Below, one piece after another: positions 4,641 through 64,000 of a DNA stretch of 64,000 bases; within the stretch, counting starts at the first letter, position 1, and each line of letters starts with the position of its first letter. The notes below the pieces were generated by a model that was given only the letters and a program-made list of their open reading frames with translations, was not told the DNA's origin and made no database searches. Position numbers and translations under genes: made by a program. Location of the stretch: assembly GCF_008831285.2 (NCBI RefSeq), contig NC_045143.1, positions 8,751,503-8,815,502 on the forward strand. The letters are read 5' to 3'. The DNA is from Nymphaea colorata. Lineage: Eukaryota > Streptophyta > Magnoliopsida > Nymphaeales > Nymphaeaceae.

Positions 4641-5937
4641 TGGAAGATTCCAGGATACCAAGGGGCGAGTATCTGCTTTGGAGTGAAAGAGAAGTTGACT
4701 ATTTAATTCAACTTTTATTGGAGCTACATACACCTGGTATGAAATCAGAAAGTGGGATGAAGAGAAAGGTGTATACAGTGATTGGAAGGTATGGGCCAGC
4801 TGGCCCAGTTTTTACAAGGGAGAAAATTAAAAATTAAATTCAAGACTGCAAAATCAAGTTTGACGATCTGCAAAGAGATTTTGAATATGAGCAAGTTTGG
4901 TTGGATCCTGATAAAAGGTATATTGATGTTTCTCCTAATGTTTGGGCTGAGTACATCCAGGTAGTTGTGTGCAAAATTTCAAGTACAATTGTATGGTGAA
5001 TTAATCTTTGCCTGAGTAATGTGGTATGCAACATATTGCAGAAATACCCAAACAAAAGAAAATAGAAGTATGCCCAAAGATGGAGATACTGCGAAGAATT
5101 CCTTGAGATCAGTGTTGTACGTATTGTACAATACGGGGCCGTATCGTATGATACGTATTGTCGCGTTTCAAAAATGTGATACGATACACCACCTTTATCA
5201 TACAGTTACGATACAGGCATCGTATTGTACGATACGATTATGATACGTAATGGTACAGTTACGATACATTAAAATACAGTTACGATACGTTAATTTTTAC
5301 TGATTTTTTATGATTTTTTCTATGTTTTCTGATTAATTAAAAAAAAATACGATACAGTTATGATACGTTACGATATTTTACGATACAACGTAAAGCCAGG
5401 CCGATACGGCTTACGATACACTTTTTACAATAATGCTTAAGATATTTGGAAACTCTCTGCTGGTAATAATAGAGATGCATGCAGGAGCATGTTCATGAAT
5501 GAAGATAAGAAAAGTATCCGTAATGCCCCCAAGGATCAATCCAAACACCATCTGATGCAATATAATGAATGCCAATCATTTAGAAAATTGCTGAAGAGTG
5601 AAAGTCCCCTTCAGCCCTCACGACCTCATACCCAAATGTTTCAAGAGCATTTTGTATCAAATGAAATAATCGAGGTACTGGCAAATCTAGAAAAGGGGAA
5701 CTGTTAGATGATAGTTTTCTTACATTGCTGAAAAGCCGTTGCCAACTGTACTCAGAATGTTCTAGGAATTATCAATTTGATCGTTCTGTAAAAATACTGC
5801 AAGGTATGCAGACTGCAGGAGAAATAGATGCTAATAGGTATGCGAGTGCTTTTGGCAATCATGGGCTTCTAGCATTCATCAACCATGAACCTGAGCTGAG
5901 GGTGTCTTGGTTGCTTTTCAAACTATCAGGAAATTAG
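4640..5937 (+). pseudogene. Decayed PIF/Harbinger Myb/SANT-like (ORF1) gene
   Basis: The frame beginning at about 4640 reads as a Myb/SANT-like domain of the kind encoded beside PIF/Harbinger transposases. It has an LLWSEREVDYLIQLLLELH helix, then KIKFDDLQRDFEYEQVWLD, then VWAEYIQ. After a probable intron (donor about 4961, acceptor about 5040) come KYPNKRK and RWRYCEEFLEI. In-frame stops interrupt it after KIKN (about 4836) and after KYPNKRK. A GATACG-rich repeat (5105-5425) then breaks it. The C-terminal part resumes at 5489-5937 and ends in an RVSWLLFKL-type helix typical of these proteins. Domain assignment is by remembered family pattern. The gene cannot make an intact protein. Confidence 0.6.
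5105..5425. repeat. GATACG-rich degenerate repeat block
   Basis: Dozens of overlapping GATACG, TACGAT and CGTATC words in both orientations, with a T/A-rich centre (about 5300-5350). The block begins immediately after the conserved EEFLEI segment of the Myb/SANT-like relic, so it looks inserted there. A weaker GATACA/GATACT-type block occurs at about 25,885-25,945. Confidence 0.7.
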
Positions 5938-8939: not shown

Positions 8940-11900
8940 TAATACTATGAGTTGAGGTCCTGTGCGGACCCATTTTTGTTGTACATATTACTTCATTGTG
9001 TTTGTTGAAATAAAAGGATGGGGGCCTAACCCCCAGGCAGTCATTGTCCGGAATCAAGCTGACACATATGTTAACCTATCATGATGCCATATAGAATAAC
9101 TTCTCTCCTTGACCTTCTTGTGAGACTCTTGCTATGGTGTACTGATTGGCATTTTGTGTAATCAGCTCATTAATCTTGACTAATGCATCTCTTTAATCTG
9201 CATAATCGTGACTCCATGGTACCGTGAATATTTCATATTTCCCAATCATAATTCTGCCGGTTGAAATGCTGCTGCCAGTGGAGAACTTTTGCTTGTGTGC
9301 CATGTTGCCTGCTCCAACCCCTTTTTTTTACTACGTTGGTATACCTTCTACTCTTTGGCCATATCATGATCTTTGGATATGGCAATCGTTTGACAGTGAA
9401 GAGTTTTAATTGCTCACCAAATTCAATTTTTTTTGTAATTGAGCTTCAAAAACATTTGTGGTATGCTGATACTTGGATGATAATTCTTACTTTACATACA
9501 TAAAAAAGCTTAGCGAAGGATGATGATGTATCATGCATGACTCTTTCTCTCCCTCCCTTTTCATGTGACTGGCAGTTTCATGACGTGAGCAAGTTTTGGT
9601 CGCTCATATTAATTCATATAATTGGTGCGTATACAGGGGATTTATGAAGACTAAAGCTGTCCACGGTGAAGTGTATTTGAAGGAAAAGTATGTTGGAGAA
9701 ATTGCATACTTTGGGCAGCTTACTGGGATTTGTAGAACACCTCTGGCAAATACTGTGTGAAAAGTACTGTATTCTTCTCAAGTTGAACCTCCAACTGCTC
9801 TCTCTCTCCCCCCTTTGGCATCACGATAGGTGTTTGTTGCATTCTGTAACAAGAACCCCAATGTGGTTACTGGCTCCCTATTGTTGTTTGATCTCAGGAG
9901 GGTGAGTTTCCTTGGCTTCTCCCAAACAGAAAAAAGACGCCTTCAAGGCCACCAAGTATTCTAAGTTTCTTAGTATCTTTCCAACCATGGTCACTGTTGT
10001 ATACTGACTTTCCATTTTTAAAGGATTTGGACTTCTAGAAAATAAAATACTTGAAATACAACCAATGGTGACATTTCCTCAGGCATAAATATTTTATTGT
10101 TTCATTAAACACCAAAGAGATCTTCTGGAACTACTAGTCTAAGCCATCAAACTATGAAAAAAATTGCGCCTCAAAAGTGTTCCTTCTCCACTCTCAGCTG
10201 GAATGGTTTTTCTGCAACGACCTTCTATAAAAATCTATTCAAGGGCCATCAAACGCTTTCTTAGTGATTTCGGTATGAAGTGGAATCCAATATTGATAAC
10301 ATTGAAGTTTCTGTGTCTCGGTCCTGAGATTTACATCCGTTGCTTTGAATTGCATAATTAACTACTCTGTTAGTTTTAAAAGTGAGTTAACCAAACGTAA
10401 ATCCAACCTATGGTAGCACCAGTGTGCTGTTGAAGTTGGGCATGTGGATAAATCGAATTTGAATTAATTATCGCTATACCATATGGGTTGTCCGGGTGTT
10501 GCTTAATTTTATCTTGAATTCTAATTGCAAGAATTACAAAACTATATGTGGACTTTTACATGTTATTGGATTCAAACGTCTATAAAAACCGGATATCAAT
10601 TGAATTTGCAAGAGAAAGCGTTGTACTATTTTCTTATTATATTATTCAAAGAATGTGAATTTTGATTTTTTTTTCAGATAAATTCAACCACTTGAACTGA
10701 CACTTAGATCGCATAGGCATCCGTACATGAAGTATTCCTTGAAGATGAACTTTCTCTCTCCTCTCTTTTTGCTTTCTCTCTATCCAAACACCTTTTTTTA
10801 ATCTTTCTCTCACTTAAAATCAGCTATATCCAAATAAAAAAAAAACTGTGTCCACTCCTGTCCTTTCTCTTTGTTTCTTTCCATCTAAACAAGGTGTAAA
10901 GGTGTTTTTGGTGGAAATTGAATCCTAGATCCAAGGTGATCTGTGATATGAGGAACTTAGATCGAAGGCTTAATCTCAAAACCAGCATTTGAGAATCTCT
11001 TGCATGTTTAGGCTTATGCAGACGAGAATTTTGTCAGGGTTCTCTCACAAGTAAAGTTTTTTTTTTCTTTTTTTGCAAGTTAACCTTATCATATTATGGA
11101 TATGATCTTAAGAATAGGTTGATGCAAAACATATATTAAGTTGATCATTTTTTAGAATTTAATAATGTTTTTATAATAAGAAAAAAATGAATATCTCACA
11201 TAACATCAACATTTTCATACTAGAAAAATCAACATTTTTTACAAAAACAACTTGAATCAAAAGCATCTTTTATATCAAATTAGTTTTTATAAATATATTA
11301 GGATGTTTATATTCTATTTTCTTTCTTCCAGATTTCCCCTTGATGGTAACCACCCGATAGACCTATCCTAAAAACAATAAAATACTAGAATTGTTTCTGT
11401 CACCAAACGTCCCTTTAATCTCAAAATCTTGACAACTAAATCTGGCACAACGAATGACCCGTCTTACCACTCAAACACACCTATACAGGAATGGGCTGCA
11501 TTATCTCCTCATATTTGACATTAAAAGTATAATTGCAGTTATTCTCATTAACTTTCACATTCAAACCCTTCGCTTCTAATATAAAAACCAAACACAATGC
11601 AAATATGGAACACTGAGAACGCGACCCTCAAAAAATAGCCATTTTGTAAAAATTAAAATATTGTTATAACTTGATTTTTTAATCACTTTTTGAAACGTGA
11701 TTTGTTTATTTGGGTGATATACAAAGTGGCTTTCTTATAAAAAAAATCTAGACGGGGTTCAAACTGTTTACTTTTTTTTTTTTGAAAAAAATAAACATGA
11801 CATATTGTTAAGGAATGAAAAATCAACCATATGGTAAGTCAATAAAACTTTGCACCTTCATTATTAAGACGAGATGTGAGAAAATTTCCAAATAAGAAGG

Positions 11901-47974: not shown

Positions 47975-50150
47975 TCACTGAAGACGGGTAGCAGAGACCC
48001 TCTCCTCGTCCGTGAGAGCATGACGAAAGTGGCAGCGATGGCCGTATGGACAGGTCTCTCCGGCAACCACCATCTTGCAGAGCTCTGTTTTGTAGCGAGG
48101 GTGGCGGATGACAGGTCGAAGTTCCTCGATGCCGTGAGCGAACTGGCAGTGGTCGTTGTAGGGGCATTCCCCGCTCTGCTGCCACTTGTTGCATAACTCG
48201 GTCTTGAATGTCCCCTGCTTGAATGCCTCCACCTCCACTTCAGACGCCTCCTCCTTCCCGCTCGAAACGCGAACCCTCTGCTTCATTATTGACGCCAAGC
48301 GCACACAGCCAAACACAAATCTTACATGTTAATAGCCAAGTCAAATTGAGGTGCACCATTAAATGAAACTAAAAGCCAGCTTAACCAAATATTTGTATGC
48401 GTGCAGATGTCTTCAGTTACTGAATACGCGGAAATTCCTAGTGCGATCAGGAACTTACTAACACTGTGAGCCTGCCACCCACGGCAGGACCTAAAGACCA
48501 AACTGCCATATTCAGCCATGAGGGATCAAAGGGAGAAGAGAAGTGTTGACAGTACACCCATCTGAGCTATGGGAACAGTTGTTCATGGTCTAGAGCACCC
48601 AATATAAGGATGATCTTCAATCATTTTCAGTTTTACGACGATTCTCTTGAGTTAAAATTTTCCATGCCATCCGCCATTTCACATGATCGATGGTCGATGG
48701 TGCTAGCGATTTGACCATATATGCCTCCCCGATCTTGCTTGATAAAGGTGTTATGTTAAAGAGACCGGGAACATGTCAAGAACCAAATCAAGTGCATTGT
48801 GGGACTCACGGTTTGAGTGACAGGTGCTTTACTGTAGGAGGGCAATGTCGCATACTTAGTGCAACGTGATCGCACCTAATCCGCCCCCACATTAGGTGAA
48901 GGCTCACCCGCTATATCATCCTCATTTCCCCCTTCATTCTCAAACTCATGATTGACCGCTGATGTGGATCAATATAGACCTGACGGAGGCCATCACTCAG
49001 TTTAATAAGCATAATATCAAAACATTCAAAAGAAAACATGCACATATGACCCCTCAACATCCAACAAATGGATGGCGGTAGTAACCGTTTGCATTGAAAA
49101 TTTTATTTTTTTGGTCAAAAAATACGTTTCAGGTTTTGATTCAGGTAATGGGGACCCCGTTTAAGAAAATATGATACGAAGTTTCATACAGAAAGACCCG
49201 TTCCAAACCTACATGTGTGGTCTGCTCCCATTATTATGTAGACATGCCATTCTTTTGTCTGACATAACGAGCCAGATCAGATACGAAGGGTCCGGGGTTT
49301 AATTAGGTAACGAGGTTGGCGCTTGGATGCTCATCCGGTGGCAGCTAAAGGGGCATTAGTATAAAGTTTTCAACCTAAGGAAGCCATCACCCTTCCCTCC
49401 CCTCGCAGTAAAGCTCACCAAATAACCAACCGGTCCAAATCAATCGCCATCATCATGATTCTGGATGGTAGAAGATGATCGCCACAGCAAACACAACAAA
49501 ACAAAACGTGAGGGGAAAGTAAAGCTTACCATCCCAGAAACCGGACTGGAGAGTCGGACTCGGCTCGGGTGATTTGAGATTCTCCCGCTCCTGCCTGGCT
49601 GGCTCATTTTCAGGAACCCTGCCGATCGAATAGCTATGCTTTTCGGAAGTGCGATACGACCGGTGCCGCTCGTCCCCGTCGACTCCGCCGCCGCTACCAT
49701 GCGCGCATTATCGATGGGGGGAGGTTCCTCGAAGCTCAGCACGCTCGTTGGACTGCTGTCCGTCAATCCAGCAGGAAGCCCTCCTCCCAGGGTGTCATCT
49801 TCAATGTTGAGCCGCTGGAATTCAGCGAGAAAAGGAACAGAAGAGGAGGCAGGATAAGCGAGGTATCCTTGACTCCAGAACGAGCTGTTGAACATGCTGA
49901 GCTTCCGCGTGAGATCCGCGTTTGCCTCCCGAAGCATTTCGTTTTCTTCTCGTAGAGCAGCAACCTCCATGGCTGCCTCCCGCAGGCGCCAATGGTACCT
50001 CTCAGCCATCTCCTTATAGTTGAAAGTTAAGCAAGTCAAGGTGCTGATATCCTCTTGCCGTGGAGAAGTAGGCTCCGGGGCGATGGTAATGGCGGTGCTG
50101 TACCCTGAGGTACGGGCGGCACCGCTGCTTGAGCTGTTTGTTGGCTCCAT
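47975..50150 (-). CDS. Tandem CCCH zinc-finger protein (AtC3H14/C3H15 type)
   Basis: Tandem CCCH proteins of this type bind AU-rich mRNA and also act in transcription. Their Arabidopsis relatives AtC3H14/15 influence cell elongation, secondary wall and anther development. Two coding exons, 50150-49530 and 48277-47975, give 307 aa. Residues 45-87 form a coiled coil ([20 protein letters not shown]). A conserved [16 protein letters not shown] segment follows at about 178. The zinc fingers are C-X8-C-X5-C-X3-H at 236-255 and again at 274-293, each preceded by KTELC, separated by [14 protein letters not shown]. The first ATG after the upstream acceptor (ATTGCAG, exon start 50,174) encodes [11 protein letters not shown] three-nucleotide acceptor shift (CAG) at exon 2 could add one glutamine. 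A 5' leader exon probably lies upstream. Confidence 0.9.
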
Positions 50151-50836
50151 CCGTTGTCGTTTCCTCAACAAAACCTGCAATGCATTGGCCGGTCATATAT
50201 GTTCGTCGTTCGAATATTATATTCATTAGAGAAGATCAGGCGTATTAACTCATCTGAATCCAAAAACGAACGAGAAAGGTTGAGATGTAAGTAAACAAGA
50301 GAAACCTCAAGGAAGGAAGCATATGTAACAAGAAAACAACGAATAACTAACGAGAAATTTCAGCCAAAGGGGGAAAAGTAAAACTCAGAATAGGAACGAA
50401 CAAAGGACCGACAATTTCCTCAAGAAACGGAGGTCGAATCGCATGAACAAAGGGAAATGCGCTAGAAAGTCGATACCTGAACCAGAAATCCTTCAAATAC
50501 CCAGGCTCAGAGCGTCGATTAAAACCCAAAACATGATTCGTTGTCACCCTTCTCGAAAGAAAGCCATAAGTAAGAGGAAAAACCACAGACGAAAAGGAAG
50601 ATTTCAGCGCTTCAACAACGACGCTCGTAGAAGAATCCAAAAACTTCAACGAATTTTAGAATTAAAATACCGAACACAAAAAACCTTCCAAACTTCGCCC
50701 CTCTTCCCGTTCAGTAACAGCAGTTCTTAAAACACACAGCAAGCAATCGAATAAAAGCAGCAGCTCACGGAGCAAAGTAAAACAACGAGAGAGAGAGAGA
50801 AAGAGAGAAATGAGAAAAAGAGATAACGATTCGCAC

Positions 50837-51115
50837 CTCAGAGCTCCAATTAATGGCTTCCCTTGGAGTTAAAGAAGCCTGGAACAACTCAATCGTCACA
50901 GACAGAGAGAGAGAGACAGAGAATTGAGATACGAATGCCTAGGGCGTCTCGACTCTATAGGATCGAAGAGAGTGAAATCGACAAAGCTCCGAAATCATAC
51001 AGCACTCCCGCTCCTTCTCCTGCTTCCGATCTTCTTCTCCACTTCTTCTTGGCTCTGCTCAGCAAGAGACAAGGGGACAGAGAGAGAGAGAGAGAGAGAG
51101 CGCTACTGTAAGAAG
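50837..51115 (-). promoter_or_regulatory. Probable 5' leader exon of the CCCH gene with (CT)n
   Basis: In gene sense this stretch has a long CT run (complement of GAGAGAGAGA at about 51,079-51,102) and ends at a plausible donor (CTGAG followed by GTGCGAA, 50,836). That would pair with the acceptor at 50,175. CT-rich leaders near the transcription start are common in plants. No transcript evidence is available here. Confidence 0.45.
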
Positions 51116-52752
51116 AAGCAGGTGCGCGCCAAACAATATATATGAAATGATGACACGGGACGTGCTGCAGCGACAGGGAGCTCGGGTCAGTTACACTTTC
51201 AACAGAATGAGGGTGGGGCCCTCCATATCAAATCCAGACTCGAATCGGGTCCGATGGTTGATCAGTTTGACAAGTCCAAACAAGAACAGGGAATGATGTT
51301 TAAGTTTGGATCCACTGTTTAATGGATCCGTGGCATAATTGAGTCGGCTTTAGCAGACCCAGACTTCGACTCAGCTTTTCGGAAATGAACATTTGAAATC
51401 GAACCCAGATCCAATTGGGATAAGATCTGAATCTTACCACAAGGCCGGTCGGATCCTTATAGAATCTCGGATTTGGTTTCATCCCTTCACCTCCCTTCAA
51501 GTATTTTTTGAAAGAGTCAATTTCTATGAAATAATTAGTTTCAATGTGCGATCTTCGCTTAGCAACTAAGAGATGCATGATAAGAAATGACTTCAAGCTC
51601 AATCTTTTCAACTACTTGAGGGCAGATATGTTTGTTCTTTTATACATGTCATTTTGTTCATGAAAAAATCACATAATTCAAAATAAATGTTTGGCTGCAC
51701 AAGTTTTTTTTAACGTCCCAATTGTGTTCCAGTTTTACAATTAAAAAAAAAAATCCACTTTAGTACTTCTAGCTTGGAGAGGTCTGTGTCCAAATAATTT
51801 CCACCTTTGCTCGAGGAGAAAGTAAGGATATCAACAGATCGAATTCGGATTGTATATATCTTTAATCATATCTGCTTTTTTAGATATTTTCGGATTCGAA
51901 TTTGAATAAAGAAAAGTCATATCCGAATCTGAAGTCCGATTTTACAATTCGAATCTGATTTTTATATTTATATCCGAATTTTGAGTTGGATTTAGCCAAT
52001 TTTCAAAATTTGATAGTATTAGATATAAGATATTTGTCTAAAAATGAATTCAATCCGAATCCATATTCGAATGTGATCGGATATCTGATGTTAAATTTTG
52101 TTTCTATATCTGATTTTTTTGGATTGGTTCGTTAGATATCCAATTCAAATAGGATATATTGACATTCCTACCAGGAATCAGCACAGTGGTTGCAATTAAC
52201 CTTGGTTTTGGTTGTTGGAAAGTTTTCCCTGTTATTTCTTTTCATTTGTTACGTTTCCCAGCTCTCTCTCTCTCTCCTCCCCCCCTTCCCAGGAAGGGGC
52301 ACAGTGGCTGCACTTGTTTTTTTTATGTATACAGTAAGTTGTTCGAGTTGTCACCCTTAGCTCAGTAGTAACATGCAGTAAGTTTCTGCAAAGCTGAAAT
52401 ACATAAAACAAGTGCAGCATTAGCAACAAAGCAAATAAAATAATGACTTCAATAACACATGCTGATACCAATATCTTACAAGCATTCAATAGCATTAGAC
52501 TTTACGGCATTTAATCTAAAGTTGTAAAATCTCTCCCGTATCAGAAAGAAGCAGCGCTATGGACAGCTTTTTTTTTTTTAAAAAAAAAAAAAAACAATGA
52601 ATATTCGCAACAAGGAAAGGTGGTAGGCCTCTACAACTAATCTCTTCTCTCCAACTTTCAGGCTCAAGGACACACCCTAATTCCCATTTATTTACATTCC
52701 ACAGGGTCAGAAAATAATCTAAGTCCTCTCCTTTCGGAGCTCAAAACTCCCT
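51116..52752. other. Spacer between the CCCH promoter and the U-box 3' end
   Basis: AT-rich sequence with one MITE-like element (51,826-52,158, listed separately). T-run/A-run text lies at about 52,570-52,595. The U-box 3' untranslated region probably begins just below 52,753. No gene is recognised. Confidence 0.6.
51826..52158. repeat. hAT-like MITE, diverged copy
   Basis: It shares long blocks with 63,169-63,588, including GAATTTGAATAAAGAAAAGT, CATATCCGAATCTGA, TTTTACAATTCGAATCTGAT and AAAATTTGATAGTATTAGAT. The ends read TAAGGATATCAAC and TTGACATTCCTA, degenerate forms of the inverted termini of the other copy. No target-site duplication is evident. Confidence 0.75.
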
Positions 52753-55700
52753 TCAAAGAAGAGGCATTGGCTTACTATTGCAGTTAAGTTGTGCGATGAC
52801 TCCATCTACTTTTTGCCTAACGTATGCATTTTTGAGTCTCCCAGTCAGATCAACAAGAAGAACTCTAGCCTGAATACCATATGCATCCACCATTCGGTTG
52901 TCCATAAAAATCTTCTCCAACAGATTCAGGGCCGCCTCCTTGATTGCTGCATTCTCCCTCCCTACAAGGTCTAAGATTGGGTAGATGGCACCAGCATCAG
53001 ACAGAACTCTCACTGCCTCAAAGACCATTGTTCCATCAACCAATGTAGCCAATGCCTGCAGTGCAGCAAGTGCAGCTTTATCACCATCTTGCAAAACATT
53101 TACTAGTTCTGACAGAGCATTAGCCTTCAGCAGACAAAAAGTCGTGGCTGTATCACAAACACCCCCATGAACTTCACACACAGAAAACCACAATGGCCAA
53201 AGGCACCAAAATCCAGTGTTCACTGGTGTTATGCTAAGTTTAGGTGTACTTGTGGATAAGTTGGTCATAATTGCAGCTGCTCTTGCCTTGGCTGTCTCAG
53301 TTCCAGATTTTAGGAAGTTTACAAGCAAGGGATAAGTACCCATTCGGACCACTGCTCTCTGCATCTCCAAATCCAATTGATTTGTGAACAGAAGGATTAC
53401 CCCAAGTGCATTTTCCTTCAATTCCGAGTTTTGAGAAGAAAGGAGTCTAAAGATCTCGCGTAAAGCATCTAATCTGAACAAAGCATGAGCTACAGCTGGT
53501 GCAGAACTTCGAAGGGATGATAAAATTCCTAGTACTGCTACCTGTAGTTCTGTCCTGCTGTCATCTTTGAGTAAGCTTAAAAAATTCACCAATCTATCCC
53601 CAAAGAGCAGATAATCTGCTAACTTTGTTGTTTCTTCACCACAGAAGCAGAACACCAAGTTAATGGCCATTTCTTGGATTTCATAGTTTGAGTCTTCTAG
53701 GAGAGGCAGAATAATAGAAATGCCATTAGCATCAGAGAAAGCTTTGTTGACAGGTTCTTCCCTTGATCTGCATATACCAACTAATGCCCCTAAAGCCAGC
53801 CTCCTAATCACATGGTTTGAAATTGGATTTTGCTGAAGGCATAGCAAGTTGGTGACTATAGGTTGCAGGTCTAAAGCAACAGCACATGCATCAACAAGAA
53901 ATTGAATGCAACTGCTTGCCACAAGCCGCTCAAGGATCACGGCACAACTTTCCCTAATGAGGGTAGAGATGTGGGCTGAAAACAATAAATCAAGAATGTA
54001 AGGGACAGCACCTGCACTTGCTATGTACTTTTTGTTCTCTTGGCAGGCGGATAACTTGGCTAGAACTCCCAAAGACACAGCTTTTGATTCAAGATTTCCA
54101 GATATCATGGCTACCAGCGGAGGGACTACCCCTTCCTCACCAAGAACCTTTAAGTTCTCATTGACCAATTCCATTTCCAGAAGGGCTTTAGCCAGCAACA
54201 ATCTTGATGATTCTGGCCCTACAGTGTGCAATAACAGAATCACAAATTATTCATATGCAGCACAGCATAACGAATGTGAATTTATTTGCAGGTGGCATCT
54301 TCAAAGTTCCAGGATGCTATCATGCAAAACACCAAATGAGAAACACATAAAAATGATTTTTTTAATTGCAAACTCATACTAAAATTACAATGATGCCTGA
54401 TGATTCTGTTTGGATTCCTACATTAAGTGATTTAGGGAAAATATAATTTGACCCAGTGGGCCTGGTCATGCATAAACCTTCAGCTTAACTTGTTAAAAAA
54501 ACAACCAAAAATATTTTCCCTAATGCTGAAGCGTGCATAGGCTGGATAAACTACAAGTCTACAAGTAGGACCAGCATTAAAGCATAATACAAATAGACAG
54601 ACAACCATATGACTAAAAGGAGTCGTTGACCGTTTGACAGATAAAATATAAAAAAAACATGCCATAAGTGGCCCGTTACCATTCTGCTTTAAGAATTATT
54701 TAATGACTAGCAGTAGCGTAGCCAGAAAACTAAAACAAGAGGTGCACAATATTTACTAAAACAAAAACATAATTACTATTAAATAAGAAATGTTTGCTTA
54801 TGCCCCATTCACTGTACTACAAAAAGAGCGGAGAGAGAGGAAGGAAAGGGATCAACCCACTTAAAATTTCTGCAAAAAGTAAACACTCATGCTTTTCTGA
54901 GAGAGAGAGGGAGGGGATCCACTCACTTCAATTTATTGGAAAAAGGAAATCTGGTTTTTCTAGAGAAGGGGGCATTCTAAGGAAATAGATGGGCCAAGAG
55001 GCCCAAACCCAGTTTTACTTGACTAGGCTCATCAAATGCTGAAACAAACGGATAACAGCACCAAGCGAGTAACCTACAAAGCCCATGGCCATAAACTTTT
55101 TATTTCCATGTGAAAAGGGTGGACTTACCTTGCTCAAGACGATTGCTAAGTGGCTTATACCAATTTGCTGCTGCAACTCGAACAATATTATCATCTTCAC
55201 CACAAATACACCACAAAATTGCTTCTGCCTTTTCAGCCGATCCTCGTACAGAACCTTTTAAAAGGGTAACAAGTAAATGAATTGCAGTGCTCTGTTGGCT
55301 TATGGTGTCATATACTGGTCTGTTCAATTTAGGTCCATCATACAGAAGCTCAAACAACAATTCAACTGCAGGCTTTGATATACTGGGGTTCTGATCCAGG
55401 CATTTCACAACTTGATCAATACCTCCAGAATCAACAAATCTCTCCTGTATGTATTGTTTACACATCAAATTTCCAGAGAGAGTATTAAAAAAGGTAAACA
55501 TACAACTCTTGCTTGTCAACTAAGAATTTGGTGCAACCAGAAGTTAACAAGAAAATGCACAACAGCAACACAAGTTAGTGAATTCCGTATATTCATCTCA
55601 GAATCTCTATCGAACATAAAACGGCAATCCAATGCTTCAAATTCATTCAAAGCAACAAGATATCTCACAAAATCAACTTAAAGCAATAAAATTGCTGGTT

Positions 55701-58700
55701 TAAGATGGATCATTGAACCATCAACTCCATGGTCTAAAAGTAACTTTATTGCCAGGAAAGCCTTTCTCCTATCAGACTCTTGAAGCTCAATTGTCTATGA
55801 CAAGATAAAACAAATATAACAACTAAATTTTGTGGTATACATTATTTGTTAATGAAAGTTGATTAAGATGAAAAGAAATGCTAAAACTGCAACGCCATAA
55901 AGAGTATTCTTAAGTATTTAGAGATGGCAGGTGTCGTTAGATAGCAACACTTCATGCTTCTTAGGAACAAAAAGTTCAACATGAATCTTCAGAATTGTTG
56001 TATTGAATATAGATTTCATGATTCAACACAGCAATTGCTGTCGTATGAACAAGCAGACTTGTCTAAATAAAAGTCAAATAAGCAACATGATAAACAGAAG
56101 GATGGCCGTAACTGAATTAATTGTGCCATTAGCAGCTAACAACAGAACACTTCGAAAAAATGGTTTTTGTAAAAACCTGGTTTTCTGAAAACATTTTTTT
56201 TAATGAGTTTTCAAAATCTGGTTTGTGTGTTTGGATGACACCTTGAAAACTAGGTTTTCAAAACCTGGTTTCTGTTTGGATGACAAAAAAATGAGTTTTG
56301 GAAAGTGCCCTTAATGATTAATTTCAGCTGAATGGCAGTTAATAGTCCATTAATTTAAACTGAAAGGTAGATTTAGAGAGCGAGAGAGAGAGAGAGAGAG
56401 AGAAATTATGGATTTCAAAGGAACTAAATTGTACAAGTAGGCAAGGAAAAAGAGAAAAAAATTGAAGAAATATTCATCTGAAAAATATGTCGGTATATCT
56501 CATTAAATATGACATAAATTAAACATGGGATTTGGGGAGGTTAAAAAATAATAATTTATTTTGTAAGTTAAAAGTGAACTAATAGTGGCTTGTGTATCTC
56601 ATTAAATGTATAACTATCTTCTCTCACTAACAAAAAAGAAAGAAAGTAAGATTGGCTTCTTATAAATAGAACACAATCTAAAATGGCCCTTAGAAATAAT
56701 AAAGATTTGAAGCTGATGTCGATTTTGAGCACAGTAATTACAAAAACAACAGAACGCTTGCATGCAACTCGGTTATAATAGGCAATGCAGCTGCATGTAT
56801 AATAATGCAATTACTCATGCAGGCATAATTGCATACGTAATAATGAAGTTGCGTGTTATTTTATTTTAAGGCAACGAAAAGGTAGACAAAATGCATTATT
56901 TTATTTCAGAGCAACACTGTTTTTCACTCAATATTATCAAATTAAAATACATGTTTAGCAGTGCTCTCTTGGCCTTATGATGTCATATACTGGACTATTC
57001 AATTTATGTCCATCGTACAGAAGCTCAAATCAACAGCAGGCTTTGATGTACTGGGGTTCCAATCTAGGCATCTCACGACTTGATCAATACCTTTAAAATC
57101 AAAAGCTCAAAATGCAAAACATGCATTTTAATATGATAATATTGAGTTAAAAACAGTGTTGCTCTCTTGTTTTATCATATGGATCGGAACCCCAGTATTG
57201 TTTCACTCTGTTTTATTATCATCATCTTCACACACACCAGAAAATGCATTGAGGGAGACAAAATAGTGTTTTTGAGTGAAAAACCTGCGCCCCCCAGGTT
57301 TTTCATTCAAAGCATGTAAACGTCATTTGCTGTAAATGAAGTTTTCTGAAAACGTTGTTTTGATTGCAACCAAACACACCCAAAATGGTGTTTTGGAGGC
57401 AAAACACCATTTACATCCAAAACACTATTTTTGGGCATGCAACCAAACACACCCTTAGATATTCAGATCAGAGAAGAAGCATGCATAGAGTCCTAGATAT
57501 GTCCGATGCTGATCAGCATTCATGTCTCACCAGTCAAAGTTTCTTCTTTCTTCAAAAACAAAAACACAATGTGTTTGTTTCTAACAAAGTAAGTCTACTC
57601 TTTGCCCCAATTTTAAGGTTCCAATGAATCTCTATATCAAATCGTAAAACTAAAGGAAAAAAAATCTCATCATTGCTTTGCATCCACATCTAGTTTGCAA
57701 TGCCTCTACTGAAGTCTTCCAAAACAGAGATTAACCATTTAAAGAAAGCCAGCAAATATTAAACAACTACAATTTTTTTTAGCAACTATTCTAATGGTGC
57801 TGGTGGTTAATGAAACCAATATATCATAGATACAAATGCACATAATGAACAGCAAAAGGTCAACTGCAGCTTATTTCTCACCTTATTCCTCGGGTGGTCC
57901 TTAACAAGCCCCATTAATGTAATCAGACCTGTTTCTTCTACAGATTTTTGTGAACTTCCTACAACTGACAGAACTATACTAATCAACCCTTCAGTTGCAA
58001 TCCAATCTTTGTTGATTGGATTCTGTTCAGTTAGCTCCTGTATTTGGTTTAAGGCATCCAAGATACGTGATTCCGTGCCAGAAAGCAGCCTGGATTTGGC
58101 ATTCCTGATCTTCAGACAGTAATTCAGTTCTTGCCACTCTTCAATTGATTCTTTCAAGCGAATATTAGGCCGTAAACTAACATCATCAAGGACTTCACCT
58201 GTTTCAGGGTCACTTGTCTGACCACCATCAATCCAGGCTTTGATGCATGCTCTTTCACATGTGGTACCAGTGCAAAGACTTACTGGGTCAATCATCACGT
58301 TTCCACCTATGGGGCAGATAAATGACCTAAAAGGGGGTATGTGGTCATCTTCAGTCGTGAACTTCTTAATGGTTTGAACCCTTCTAAAGTACAGCATTTC
58401 TACTTCTTCCTGATTATTCACTGCGTCAGCCCTGGAAAGGAGAGCTATAACCTGCTCCAAGAAACACTCTTCTGCTCTTTCTTTGCGGGCTGCTGCTTCT
58501 TCTTTCTCATGCTTAAAGCTAGCAATTTCCTTGTTTATCTCCAATGGCTCAACCGGCACACCTACTGCTCTTGCTATCTCTTCTAACAGATCATTTGCAA
58601 AGCCTTGGTCAGTCTTATGCTCCTTGAGGCCCTGCTGTAGTTTCTCAAGTATCCTAACCTGTGACAGTGAGGCCTCAAATTCTGCCTTCTGCATCTCATG

Positions 58701-59114
58701 ATGCAATTGATGGACCCTCTCACTCATGTCGGACAACACCTCAGAGCTTGCAAGGGATAAACTAGCCAAAGACCTACCAATGTTCCTTGTGACATCTTGT
58801 ACTTCCTTAACAATGTGCCTACACTTAATGAGTAAGTAGAATCGAGACCGGTTCTTATACTTGTCTACCAACTCCTTCGCCTTATTGATATCACTCTTCA
58901 GACTCTCAAGTGCATGCCTAACAGCCTGTGAGTCCTTGAGCTCCCTCAACTGTAATTCTTTCAAAACAGGCTCAATGTCGCACAAGTATTTTGATAGAAC
59001 CTTGAAGCTTTCCTTCTCAATAACAACATCCTTGGCAGCTAATGCAGTCCTTAGTACTTGCTCAGCTAATAAAGCCAAAAAGGTACCTACGGGAACAATT
59101 TCCAGCCCTAACAT
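52753..59114 (-). CDS. U-box/ARM-repeat E3 ubiquitin ligase (PUB43/44-like)
   Basis: Plant U-box proteins of this class attach ubiquitin to target proteins. The PUB43/44 (SAUL1) branch is linked to senescence and immunity at the plasma membrane. Three minus-strand exons, 59114-57882, 55444-55129 and 54218-52753, give 1004 aa with closed phases, the usual length of the family. The N-terminal helical domain (about residues 1-240) contains LRTALAAKDVVIEKESFKVL and KYKNRSRFYLL. The U-box is at about 262-336 (FICPIGGNVMIDPVSLCTGT, TCERACIKAWI, DPETGEVL, RLKESIEEW). The remainder is armadillo-type repeats, including the conserved WCLWPLWFSVCEVHGGVCDT insert. The start MLGLEIVPVG is the first ATG of the open exon. 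Intron 1 (57881-55445) contains a rearranged partial copy of exon 2. Confidence 0.92.
54219..55128 (-). other. Intron 2 of the U-box gene
   Basis: 910-base intron, donor AAG followed by GTAAGTCC and acceptor CACTGTAG. It contains GA-rich patches (about 54,825-54,840 and 54,900-54,913) and a short GCAGTAGCGTAGCCAG motif at about 54,710 of the kind seen at dispersed-element ends. No gene is present. Confidence 0.75.
56150..56410. repeat. MITE-like fragment in U-box intron 1
   Basis: It contains GGTTTTC/GAAAACC palindromic words and TGTGTTTGGATGACACC (about 56,226-56,242), a 17-base word whose exact reverse complement is at 63,111-63,127. A second partial copy of the word (GTTTGGATGACA) follows at about 56,274. 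A (GA)n run closes the block at about 56,380-56,402. Confidence 0.6.
56908..57165. repeat. 49-bp inverted repeats enclosing a copy of U-box exon 2
   Basis: The left arm (56,908-56,956) and right arm (57,117-57,165) are reverse complements at 46 of 49 positions. Both include AGAGCAACACTG at the outer end. Between them, 56,957-57,101 matches U-box exon 2 (55,284-55,436) in the same orientation, with scattered substitutions, a one-base insertion and a deletion of about 11 bases. The frame is lost, so it is a pseudo-exon. Confidence 0.85.
57284..57460. repeat. MITE-like block with repeated CAACCAAACACACCC
   Basis: The word CAACCAAACACACCC occurs at about 57,368-57,382 and again at about 57,440-57,454. 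TGGTGTTTTGG/CAAAACACCA inverted words lie between them. This resembles the ends of small non-autonomous DNA elements. Exact termini are uncertain. Confidence 0.5.
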
Positions 59115-61035
59115 CGCAAATTTTTCAGTAAGCCCTCCAACAAACAGTAAACATGATCAAACCAAACTCTCATACGAAAGTACAACCAGTTAATTTAAAT
59201 TGGCAAAAGCTACCATTACAGTATTCGATCACGATGACTAGAAAACATGAAAAGTATGCTTGTCCTCATTGGAAACCATAAAATCGAAGGCCACAGATTA
59301 CAGAATTCACTTCACCTAATGAGTACCCAAATGAATTCCTTCCCCCCTCCTCTATAATTAGACACTAGTCGAAAGATAATCTCACCTACCAGCTCTTTAG
59401 TACAACGGAACAGAAATCCACTACCAACAATTGATAGCATAGAAATCGGCACCTTCTATATAACTGAAGCCTTTCACTTCTCGCCCACCTGGAAATCTTG
59501 ATGCCAGACTAAACTTCCCATCACCACCACGAGAAAAGCAAAAGAAAAAATCAAACTTCATCCTACCTTTTTAATCTCAAAGACAAACAAAACGAAAATA
59601 TGTAATCGCTACATGCCAAATTAGTAGACAGACAACAAGACGAGCGAGCCAAAAAATTCATCAAATTAGCAGCGAGAGAGGGAGAGAGAGAGAGAGAGAG
59701 AAACAGAGAAGACACTGCCAAGTTGCCCTGTGTTGACTAAGATGATGGAGTCTATCTTGGAAAGGACGCAGTTGCTTCTGGCAAAGAGCCGAAGACGGAT
59801 CGTCCAGGAGTAATGCGTGAGAACGACCCCGACTCCTGAGGACGAAACGACGAAGTAATACCCACGCGTTGGGCGCCACGGCGATGAAATTGAAACTGTA
59901 AGCAGGTTCGAATTCATTTAACACGAAATCCGAATCCATTTGGCATGGGAAATCCAAATTTGAACCTAAAATATCCGGATAACAGGTCCAACTCCAACTA
60001 GATTGAAAATGAATTTGACCTTGGAGGAATTTGACCGTCTTAAAATTCGAAGTGAATTTTAAAAATGGGACTCCAAAAATGTATTTGTGATATTAGTTAC
60101 TTATTTTTTTTCCTAATTTTTAGTTTTTTAAAGTTTCCAAAAATTCACTTTTTTTGTTTTGTCAAGTCATATTATACCCAAAAAAACATGGATGTTTAAA
60201 ACTCCGAAACCTTATTTGTGACTATGTTTCTAACGAGTAGGCTTAGGGGTGCATTTATAAGGTCATGGGTCCCTACATGCATGCTGAAGTACACGGCAGC
60301 ACATCACAGTTATGAACCTTGAGGGTAAGAGAAATGAGGAGATGCTTCAGCTTTGGCTCAGGCAGTTGAATAATTCTTTTATTCACGCGAAAATAACTAT
60401 TCTTATGTCTTTTATTTTTTCTCACATAAACATGCCAAAGGCCATCTCGAAGGGGATTGGTCCTACAAGATTAAATAAGAGTTGGCAGGAGACCAGTCTT
60501 TGTCAACTCTCTGTTTGTGAACGAGGGGTCACTGACATGAAAGATGAAATATAATAAGGGCAACATCTCGAAGCACCGATGTAATGGGGTTGGGTGGGGG
60601 CTTCGGACTTTTTCTAGAGGTGGGTCAAACCTCACTCATCCGAAAATGCGCCGAAAGAGGTCGTGAAGTTTCCATTCCTTGCATGTCAATCAATCAGTTG
60701 TCATCTCCCATCTTTATTTTCTCTCTTTGGTCCCAACTAAAGCTTGAATTGTTTAATTGATTTGGTCATCTTGGTCGTCATCCTTCTAAGTTCTTTTTAT
60801 TTAATTCAGGTTTTGTTGACTGACCTAGGCGACCTTGAGGTTTTTTTCATGCCATTTTTTTTTTGAATCGTTTTTATGTGTTTCTTACGCGATTACTCTT
60901 CTAAGACTAATTAATGTTGGTTGTACGTGGAATAAAATTTGTGATTGCACTTGGCTAGGGACAAAAGCCAACCTAATAAAATTAATTAATGAAAGTATTT
61001 TTGGTTTTTTTCAATAACCTAACTTTTTGGACATG
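59115..61035. other. U-box promoter side and AT-rich spacer
   Basis: 59,115-59,950 probably includes the U-box leader and promoter, with a (GA)n run at about 59,675-59,701 (CT-rich in gene sense). From about 60,070 to 60,240 there is dispersed-repeat text ending near GTTTAAAACTCCGAAACCTT, the inverted form of sequence at about 28,960. Short frames at 60.3-61.0 kb are not convincing as genes. Confidence 0.55.
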
Positions 61036-61039
61036 ATCT

Positions 61040-61260
61040 TAAGAGGATAAATATATATTAATTGGTCAATTTTTTTATTTAATAATGTTTTTTTGGTAAT
61101 TGGCTTCTATAACATCAAAGGTTTGATAATGGAAAAGATCTATTAATTTTTGACAAAAATAACTTGAACTAAAGTATGATTTACATAAAATTAGTATTTA
61201 GAAACACATTAACAGATTTATATTTTGTTTATAATATTTTCTAAAAGGTTTGGTTGTTGT
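61040..61260. repeat. Dispersed repeat, copy 3 of 3
   Basis: It has the same order as 11,105-11,330 and 21,795-21,990: ATTAATTGGTCAATTTTTTT, then AATAATGTTTTTTTGG, AATAACTTGAACTAAA, and a TTAACAGATTTATATTTTG tail. A further head fragment (ATTAAGTTAGTTGCTTTC) begins at about 61,422. Confidence 0.65.
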
Positions 61261-61262
61261 CT

Positions 61263-61339
61263 ATGACTCTCTTACCCAAGTGGTATGGTATATATTTAAG
61301 AAAACCAGACCACTTGGGTAGGAGAAAAACTAGAGTCAT
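61263..61339. repeat. Nested hairpin
   Basis: The outer arms ATGACTCT (61,263-61,270) and AGAGTCAT (61,332-61,339) are perfect complements. Inner arms ACCCAAGTGGTATGGT (about 61,274-61,289) and ACCAGACCACTTGGGT (about 61,304-61,319) pair at 15 of 16 positions, with a loop of about 14 bases. Confidence 0.8.
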
Positions 61340-61740
61340 TAAACTTAACAATTAAAATATCTTTTTTGCAATCTGACCTTATACACTAAGAACTTAAGGG
61401 TCATTTGGTGAGAAACATATATTAAGTTAGTTGCTTTCTTACTTAAATAATATTTTTTAATAATAAAAAAATAACCACCACTTATAACGTTTAACACTTA
61501 GTATGTCCTTAATTAGTTAGAATGACAGACATTCATACATTAGAGAGAACACATATTATCAACAAGGATAAAATCTGGTAAGTTCCATTGAAGCAGATTA
61601 TGGGATTAACTTCAGACATCATAATTCATAACAACGCAGTTACGGAGACGCCATAAGAGAAGAGGGGATATTTTGATAATTTTTTAAAAAGAATGTCCTT
61701 TCTAGTCTTCGATTTTCATTTTTATCCTCACAGAAAGTTT

Positions 61741-61777
<37 letters not shown>

Positions 61778-61801
61778 CATACACGTGTGTGTTTGTGTCT
61801 G

Positions 61802-62752
<951 letters not shown>

Positions 62753-62849
62753 CGTGTAGGCAAATAACATGTCACCACTCAACTTTTGAGAGAAACAATC
62801 GCTTAGTTGCTAAAGGGAAGCATTGGTTTTTTATATAAAAATTTAAAAT

Positions 62850-63135
62850 GGTAAAAAATACCTATTACAAAAACTACTCTTCCCATGGTTGGAAAAGATA
62901 TTTTACAAGAAATCATGGGTTGTTTGCGTTGTTTTATACCAACCGGCCCGATTTGGGATATTGCAAAATGTTGTTTTTTCTCCGAAATGGCGTTTTTGGA
63001 ATGTCTAATAACATGCCCCTTCTCCTGTGTTATTCACAAAAGCCGGTTTTAGAAAATGTTTGAAAGTCATTTTTTCATAAAACCAGTTTTCACAAAACAT
63101 TTGTTTTCTCGGTGTCATCCAAACACAGCCTGTAT
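62850..63135. repeat. MITE-like fragment related to 56.2 kb
   Basis: It ends with GGTGTCATCCAAACACA at 63,111-63,127, the exact reverse complement of a word in U-box intron 1. Preceding GTTTTC/AAAACC words are also shared. It is probably one non-autonomous DNA-element family in opposite orientation. Confidence 0.55.
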
Positions 63136-63168
63136 TTTCATGTAATTTAGTAGATGGCTCCTTGGGAG

Positions 63169-63588
63169 TAGGGATGTCAACGGATACGGATCATATTCGG
63201 ATCTGATATATCTTTTAATTATATCAACTTTTTTTGGATATTCACATACTTGGATTCGAATTTGAATAAAGAAAAGTCATATCCAGATCCAAAATCTGAT
63301 TTTACAATTCAAATCTGATTTTTATATTTATATATGAATCCAAATTTGAACCGGATTTTGCCACATTTTCAAAATTTAATAGCATTAGATACATGATATC
63401 TGTTTAAAAATGAATCTGATCCGAATCTGATCGGATATTTATGTATATCCGAATTTGATTGGATGCCATTTATTAATTCTGAATCCGATCCAATTTCTTA
63501 ATCGGATATTAAAATTTTTTTCATATCCAATTTTTTCAGATCAGTTCGATCAGATATCCAATTCGAATAGAATATATTGGCATCCCTA
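63169..63588. mobile_element. hAT-like MITE, about 420 bp
   Basis: Terminal inverted repeats TAGGGATGTCAA (start) and TTGGCATCCCTA (end) match at 11 of 12 positions. The flanks CTTGGGAG (63,161-63,168) and CTTGAAAG (63,589-63,596) look like an 8-bp target-site duplication with two changes, the size made by hAT transposases. The interior is non-coding and dominated by GGAT(A/C)(T/C)GAAT-type words. A diverged copy lies at 51,826-52,158 and fragments at about 1,290-1,410. Confidence 0.8.
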
Positions 63589-63599
63589 CTTGAAAGAGT

Positions 63600-64000
63600 T
63601 TCTTTTAAAAATTGAGTTTTTATTCATTAGCTTCTAAAAATCGAGTCATGATTTATTATTTGCCCAGACCTTGGGCGTTTTATTGTAATTTTCTTGGACC
63701 TCCTACATATAGTTATCTAGATATAGCCACCCACAGACTTCATTTGTTCTTCATTCTCTCCTTCCCGAAAGTTGCCTCATAGCCTTTAATGTGTATGTGC
63801 CTTCTTCAATAAAAGTCGAACTAAATAGTTGTCTTCTTTTATCATTTGAAAGCAATTAATTCTCATCTCCTGATATCGACACATTAGACGTAGAACTAGG
63901 GGCGGAAGCAAGTGGGGTTTCTGTGGGGGCGTATGCCCACCCTTGAAACTTGGGCGAACTTCGATCTCATTATATTGCTTAGCCCCACGATCTAGGTGGT
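63600..64000. other. Window end, no gene recognised
   Basis: AT-rich spacer. From about 63,897 TAGGGGCGGAAGCAAG begins a GC-richer block that runs off the window, resembling the terminal motif at about 355. It is probably the end of another dispersed element. Confidence 0.4.

Follow-up and report, generated by a model that had tools for sequence, protein, structure and literature searches.

A partial exon 2 copy within a resident intronic repeat of a Nymphaea colorata U-box gene: a candidate in-place repair patch

Introduction

Intron 1 of a U-box/ARM gene of Nymphaea colorata contains a degraded piece of the gene's own second exon, placed between two inverted repeats. Such an arrangement resembles a miniature transposon that has captured a gene fragment, and the question raised by this locus is whether the exon piece was carried there by a mobile element or was made where it now lies. 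The original prediction had favoured a small transposon or foldback element that took up the neighbouring exon and landed back in the same gene. The analyses below were carried out on a window of 64,000 nucleotides (NC_045143.1, positions 8,751,503 to 8,815,502; coordinates are given from the first base of this window), and all genome comparisons refer to the 408-Mb assembly of the same source.

Results

The U-box gene and the exon 2 copy

The gene is encoded on the minus strand. Exon 1 (57883..59156) encodes a U-box (Pfam, 54.6 bits) and terminates at the donor AATAAG/GTGAG, 57883 being the edge of this splice donor, while its upper limit of 59156 represents the end of the open frame and not a mapped transcript start. 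The limits of exon 2 (55130..55445, minus strand) were set by the splice sites AG/GAGAG and CAAG/GTAAGT together with the open frame. Exon 3 (52753..54219, minus strand) was identified by its open frame and encodes ARM repeats, with Pfam Arm and ARM_PUB detected over 52756-54219. The exon 2 protein had no relatives in the viral and prokaryote collections and no match in PDB at E<=0.1.

The exon 2 copy is located at 56958..57102 (listed on the plus strand, the exon sense reading on the minus strand) and aligned with 55284-55434 of exon 2. The 145 bases of the copy were in the same orientation as the source and identical to it at 128 of 144 aligned bases, with one 7-nt deletion and one 1-nt insertion; the reading frame is broken and stops are present. 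The diverged, frame-broken 145-bp copy in the same orientation that the original prediction described is therefore real. Its exon 2 origin was also upheld, but the copy covers only the first half of exon 2 in sense. The 16 differences between copy and exon were distributed over codon positions 1, 2 and 3 as 3, 7 and 6, and 11 of them, taken singly, altered the residue, one of these to a stop. The copy has evolved free of coding constraint.

When exon 2 was used as a query against the assembly (E<=0.001), it matched only itself and the intronic copy. The matches of the 258-bp hairpin stretch were limited to itself, exon 2 and an arm-like site on C1. Most simply, the source of the copy would be exon 2 of the same gene, since exon 2 matches nothing but itself and the copy in the assembly, with the reservation that these searches score the best candidates only and strongly diverged paralogues may escape them. 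The source lies on the same chromosome in cis, at a distance of about 1.5 kb.

The inverted-repeat arms

The copy lies between a left arm (arm L, 56908..56960, plus strand) and a right arm (arm R, 57113..57165, minus strand). Both arms are 53 nt long and complementary at 49 of 53 positions (92%), and the match of 46 out of 49 reported earlier is the same pairing trimmed slightly shorter. The description of the copy as exactly enclosed holds on the left, where arm L abuts it; on the right, 10 nt (57103..57112, plus strand, delimited by sequence and alignment) separate it from arm R. These 10 nt may be what is left of a degraded end of the copy.

The outer 22 nt of the arm, allowing up to 3 mismatches, occurred at two sites in the window, which were the two arms (mean of 0.00 in 100 shuffles). 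A genome-wide search with the 25-nt arm core, again with <=3 mismatches, identified arm R (0 mismatches), arm L (2), C1:4782018 (0) and C3:25784054 (3), the last of which is probably a chance match; the reversed control gave no match genome-wide. Because the core was found only at the two arms, at one C1 locus and at one site that is probably due to chance, the arms are not the ends of a mobile family. They form an internal fold-back in the window's copy of a longer dispersed repeat, here named F. Arm copies flanking unrelated sequence, which had been put forward as a sign of a mobile element, did not turn up: the C1 site belongs to a one-armed copy of F.

No convincing target-site duplication was identified next to the arms. 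The best flanking direct repeat measured 9 bp with one mismatch and unequal ends, and was equalled by 64 of 1000 random placements. A perfect 9-bp pair of CAAAATGCA (56887-56895 and 57108-57116; equally long in 28 of 200000 random junctions) was considered as a target duplication around a 212-bp insertion. This candidate was dropped because two other F copies, L029 and L030, have a second unit of a direct repeat, D7, after that place, so that D7 and the sequence beyond it belong to F.

A derivation of the arms from exon 2 was also rejected. Their best match to this exon was AT-rich and extended over 11-15 nt, with p values of 0.035 and 0.009 under strict scoring vs 0.106 and 0.088 under lax scoring. 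A third arm-like stretch at 57199-57221 was not significant. In external collections, the arm gave one 17-mer match in IMG/VR (L001), which was taken as chance, and no match in prokaryote genomes. A literature search with the letters of the arm returned a match in a paper on wasps, as judged by its title.

The dispersed repeat F

F occupies about 56147-57458 (approximate ends, based on genome matches), which is roughly half of intron 1, and appears as an old transposon-like relic. With 56140-57262 as a query, 48 matching stretches were obtained, the window's own included, among the best 40 of 418 candidates that were scored. Most of them lay in roughly the first 230 query bases. Taken alone, the 5' part of F (56147-56345, about 200 bp) recurs often in the assembly and accounted for most of the 48 matches; at 11630-11717 and 63035-63127 the window also has partial matches to it.

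Seven places outside the window matched F past query position 500 (among the same best 40 of 418 candidates), and one stretch was read at each of them (L028, L029, L030, L031, L032, L033 and C1). In four of the six fetched copies (L028, L029, L030 and L032), F continued beyond the place of the hairpin into its 3' part, while the parts read of L031 and L033 contained no F there and were hence uninformative on the hairpin site. No match to the exon copy was detected at E<=0.01 in the stretches read at the seven loci. In the window, the copy is flanked by F sequence on the left and on the right.

Arm L is preceded by two D7 units of F in tandem, separated by CAAAATGCA (56856..56915, plus strand), and two D7 units were also found in L029 and L030. 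The outer part of arm L is F sequence, as it is contiguous with F in L028. In this copy, located on C9, the outer part of arm L joins directly the F sequence found past the hairpin in the window (57218..57263, plus strand, 80% to L028), where F resumes after the inserted stretch. L028 has no arm pair, and L029 and L030 have no arm stretch beyond the D7 unit. The mismatch rates to the window, calculated from the longest aligned piece, were 0.133 for L028 and 0.127 for C1. In addition, a 41-bp self-complementary stretch inside F (57271-57311), with GTTTTTCACTCAA in common with arm L, has a counterpart in L030. There seem to be several related fold-backs in F.

The C1 locus

The C1 locus matched F at 56148-56891 and then the right arm, in the order of F. 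The right-arm sequence at 57110-57155 was 91% identical to C1:4782007-4782052 over 46 bases, in the same orientation relative to F, which makes C1 a single-armed copy of F. Between F and this arm lies a 240-bp insert bordered on each side by AAATG (C1:4782053-4782292; L008:8053-8292), which is a repeat of high copy number (40 scored of 400 first-look candidates). The insert interrupts C1 at the site corresponding to the centre of the palindrome, at the same central AAATGC.

C1:4782007 was considered as a duplicated U-box intron and rejected, as no U-box exons are present nearby. A blastn comparison of 50000-64000 of the window with 18 kb of C1 gave four matches, all within the F region, and tblastn with the three U-box exons found nothing in 180 kb of C1. 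C1 and the window may share a palindromic ancestor, the left arm having been lost from C1; otherwise the right-arm sequence has another history. C1 can neither date the capture nor document a former palindrome free of the copy, because the region where the exon copy would sit is absent there.

An inverted exon piece outside the arms

Just outside arm R, a 19-nt stretch at 57180..57198 (minus strand) matched 55380-55398 of exon 2 in inverted orientation at 18 of 19 positions. Its score was reached by none of 1315 other tiles on that strand and by 0-1 of 1000 shuffles under strict scoring (p 0.061 under lax scoring, over 57150-57262). The stretch at 57217-57245 was examined as a second exon fragment with the same strict score of 33 and was rejected, as L028 shows it to be F sequence. 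The 19-nt match is weakened because this false case passed the same control, and the derivation of the piece from exon 2 is no more than probable. The sequence is ATACTGGGGTTCTGATCCA in the exon, ATACTGGGGTTCCGATCCA in the inverted piece and GTACTGGGGTTCCAATCTA in the copy. The inverted piece and the copy have in common one base that differs from the present exon, as expected if both had been taken from an older state of the exon.

Origin of the exon copy

Since F is dispersed and the arms lie inside it, and with a single detectable source of the exon and no copy in the F stretches read elsewhere, we incline, with confidence a little above even, to the reading that a resident F palindrome was broken and filled in place with about 150 bp copied from exon 2. 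Intron 1 would already have held F as an old dispersed repeat with an internal palindrome, the left arm of which is largely F sequence. We infer a DNA break near the centre of this palindrome, the palindrome being older than the copy, and a repair in which about 150 bp of exon 2, 1.5 kb away, were copied as filler. The copying probably took place by strand invasion or template switching with few matching bases as a guide, after which the ends would have been joined. The patch would thus have been made in place, nothing having jumped with the exon inside, although the product has the look of a miniature transposon. The locus is most likely a relic and a curiosity of genome repair, not a mobile exon thief.

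The geometry is consistent with this reading. The copy starts where the left arm ends, no more than a few bases from the palindrome centre, and without it the arms would meet with little spacer to form a palindrome about 110 bp long. TTGCA is common to exon 2 and to the right arm, read inward, at the left junction, where the present left arm has TAGCA. A narrower form of the in-place patch can be put forward tentatively and is itself rather doubtful: the palindrome of an intronic transposon, nearly free of spacer, would have been cut at its centre and stabilised by the nearest exon as a new spacer. If this were true, two loci, the window and C1, would have been broken at the same centre, and introns with palindromic relics would keep giving rise to pseudo-exons resembling gene capture by transposons.

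The divergences argue for caution about the order of events. Arms older than the copy should be more diverged, but the arm divergence (4/53) was not above that of the exon copy (16/144; Fisher p 0.60, and 0.07 to 0.34 under a simple rate model), and these values cannot show a greater age of the arms. They are compatible with one age for both, as would be expected from a single complex repair event in which, after a break in F, template switching produced both the inverted second arm, as a fold-back of adjacent F, and the exon 2 copy. This is a serious rival, possible though on balance unlikely. It would account for the inverted 19-nt exon piece just outside arm R and for the missing palindrome in L028, L029 and L030, and in yeast, as far as the account in PMC11724301 goes, break repair leaves short inverted insertions of the fold-back type as well as inverted pieces that come in pairs from a single locus. 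The missing palindromes can be read in two ways, as a loss in these copies or as a later formation of the pair, possibly in the same event as the copy. The C1 copy of F speaks against a single event: it has the sequence of the right arm, oriented with respect to F as in the window, suggesting that the inverted arm was present in a common ancestor.

Two further explanations came with the original prediction. A small element with the arms as terminal repeats, which captured exon 2 and reinserted in intron 1, would explain why long inverted repeats enclose a gene fragment, and the flanking 9-bp repeat with one mismatch could be regarded as its target duplication. However, 64 of 1000 random placements scored as well as this duplication candidate, the arms sit within F, their core is found elsewhere only in one F copy and one site with 3 mismatches, and exon 2 matches nothing but itself and the copy, all of which makes this element very improbable. 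What stands of the transposon capture is that a transposon-like repeat is involved and that it received a copy of a neighbouring exon from the same gene; a small arm-bracketed transposon landing back does not fit arms that are inside F and not repeated. If the exon region had been duplicated locally, segmentally or in tandem, and had then undergone inversion and decay, this would fit the shared orientation, the single source and the distance of 1.5 kb within one gene, yet such a course is improbable too. Only half of exon 2 was copied and flanking intron was found on neither side, the left edge of the copy coincides with the end of a palindrome arm, and 55446-56907 contained no excess of similarity to exon 2 (the best scores on the two strands were reached by 711 and 321 of 1000 shuffles).

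Relation to known systems

In animals, Pack-TIRs have been described that form by gap filling independent of transposition (PMC8277862). Of the 281 unique animal Pack-TIRs counted there, the source is no more than 15 kb away in 160, in most of these less than 5 kb, and at least one breakpoint shows microhomology in 190. A piece of H2BC15 that was duplicated and used as part of the 3' UTR of its own gene offers a precedent for same-gene capture, and the available text of the study leaves open whether Pack-type elements arise by gap filling in plants too. The present locus resembles these single-copy gap-filled Pack-TIRs in its nearby source, in having its filler inside a resident element, in its single copy and in a possible short microhomology at one junction. 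It differs from them as the host is a plant and the filler is an exon of the element's own host gene, as the identity (128/144) is just below the 90% cut of that study, and as F is assigned to no superfamily and the locus is known from one genome.

Plant Pack-TYPE transposons, as presented in PMC8903248, likewise have inverted repeats with a host gene fragment between them. Unlike in those elements, the arms here are not the termini of an element, no convincing target-site duplication was present, no further copies were found, and the 258 bp are below the 300-bp lower limit given in that source. The locus also differs from Fold-back (FB) transposons, in which long inverted repeats terminate a mobile unit at both ends; here they do not. 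The templated and fold-back insertions at breaks in yeast, to the extent covered by PMC11724301, share with this locus the locally copied filler, the inverted pieces and the template switching. The exon piece of about 150 bp differs from the fold-back class there, which is mostly 5-34 bp, and the event here is ancient and known from sequence alone.

The locus may be regarded as a patch of the gene's own exon set into the hairpin of a repeat resident in the intron, and as a plant candidate for the repair route described in animals. The candidate is of value in that its exon has one detectable source in the assembly and its arms do not behave as mobile ends. It also calls for caution, as inverted repeats with a captured exon may be mistaken for a transposon unless the arms are searched genome-wide. 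Our literature search on same-gene intronic capture returned no paper on this subject by title, and a wider absence from print is not claimed.

Folding and other self-complementary stretches

A role of the hairpin or pseudo-exon as a functional regulator of the gene, through splicing or small RNAs, is highly improbable. The RNA strand of 56880-57260 is predicted to fold at -114.7 kcal/mol (z -6.48, with 0 of 100 shuffles as good), and the 19-nt antisense piece is predicted to pair with exon 2 at -31.7 kcal/mol vs -26.6 for the best of 138 other intron segments. Against such a role, the antisense piece would pair about equally with the pseudo-exon (-31.5 kcal/mol, predicted), the copy shows no coding constraint and the arms match the mRNA over no more than 11-15 nt. 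The proposed hairpin matching the mRNA was not supported, the arms having just this short match to exon 2 and the copy in the loop being in sense. A search of Rfam over 52500-60000 gave no match at gathering scores, and from the sequence there is no sign of a function of the hairpin or pseudo-exon.

Elsewhere in the window, two further imperfect self-complementary stretches were observed at 5118-5157 (40 bp) and 61268-61325 (58 bp). The 25 longest inverted repeats listed for the window were filled by simple-repeat arrays at 62394-62751, which contain an open frame of 180 aa in which Y and I alternate.
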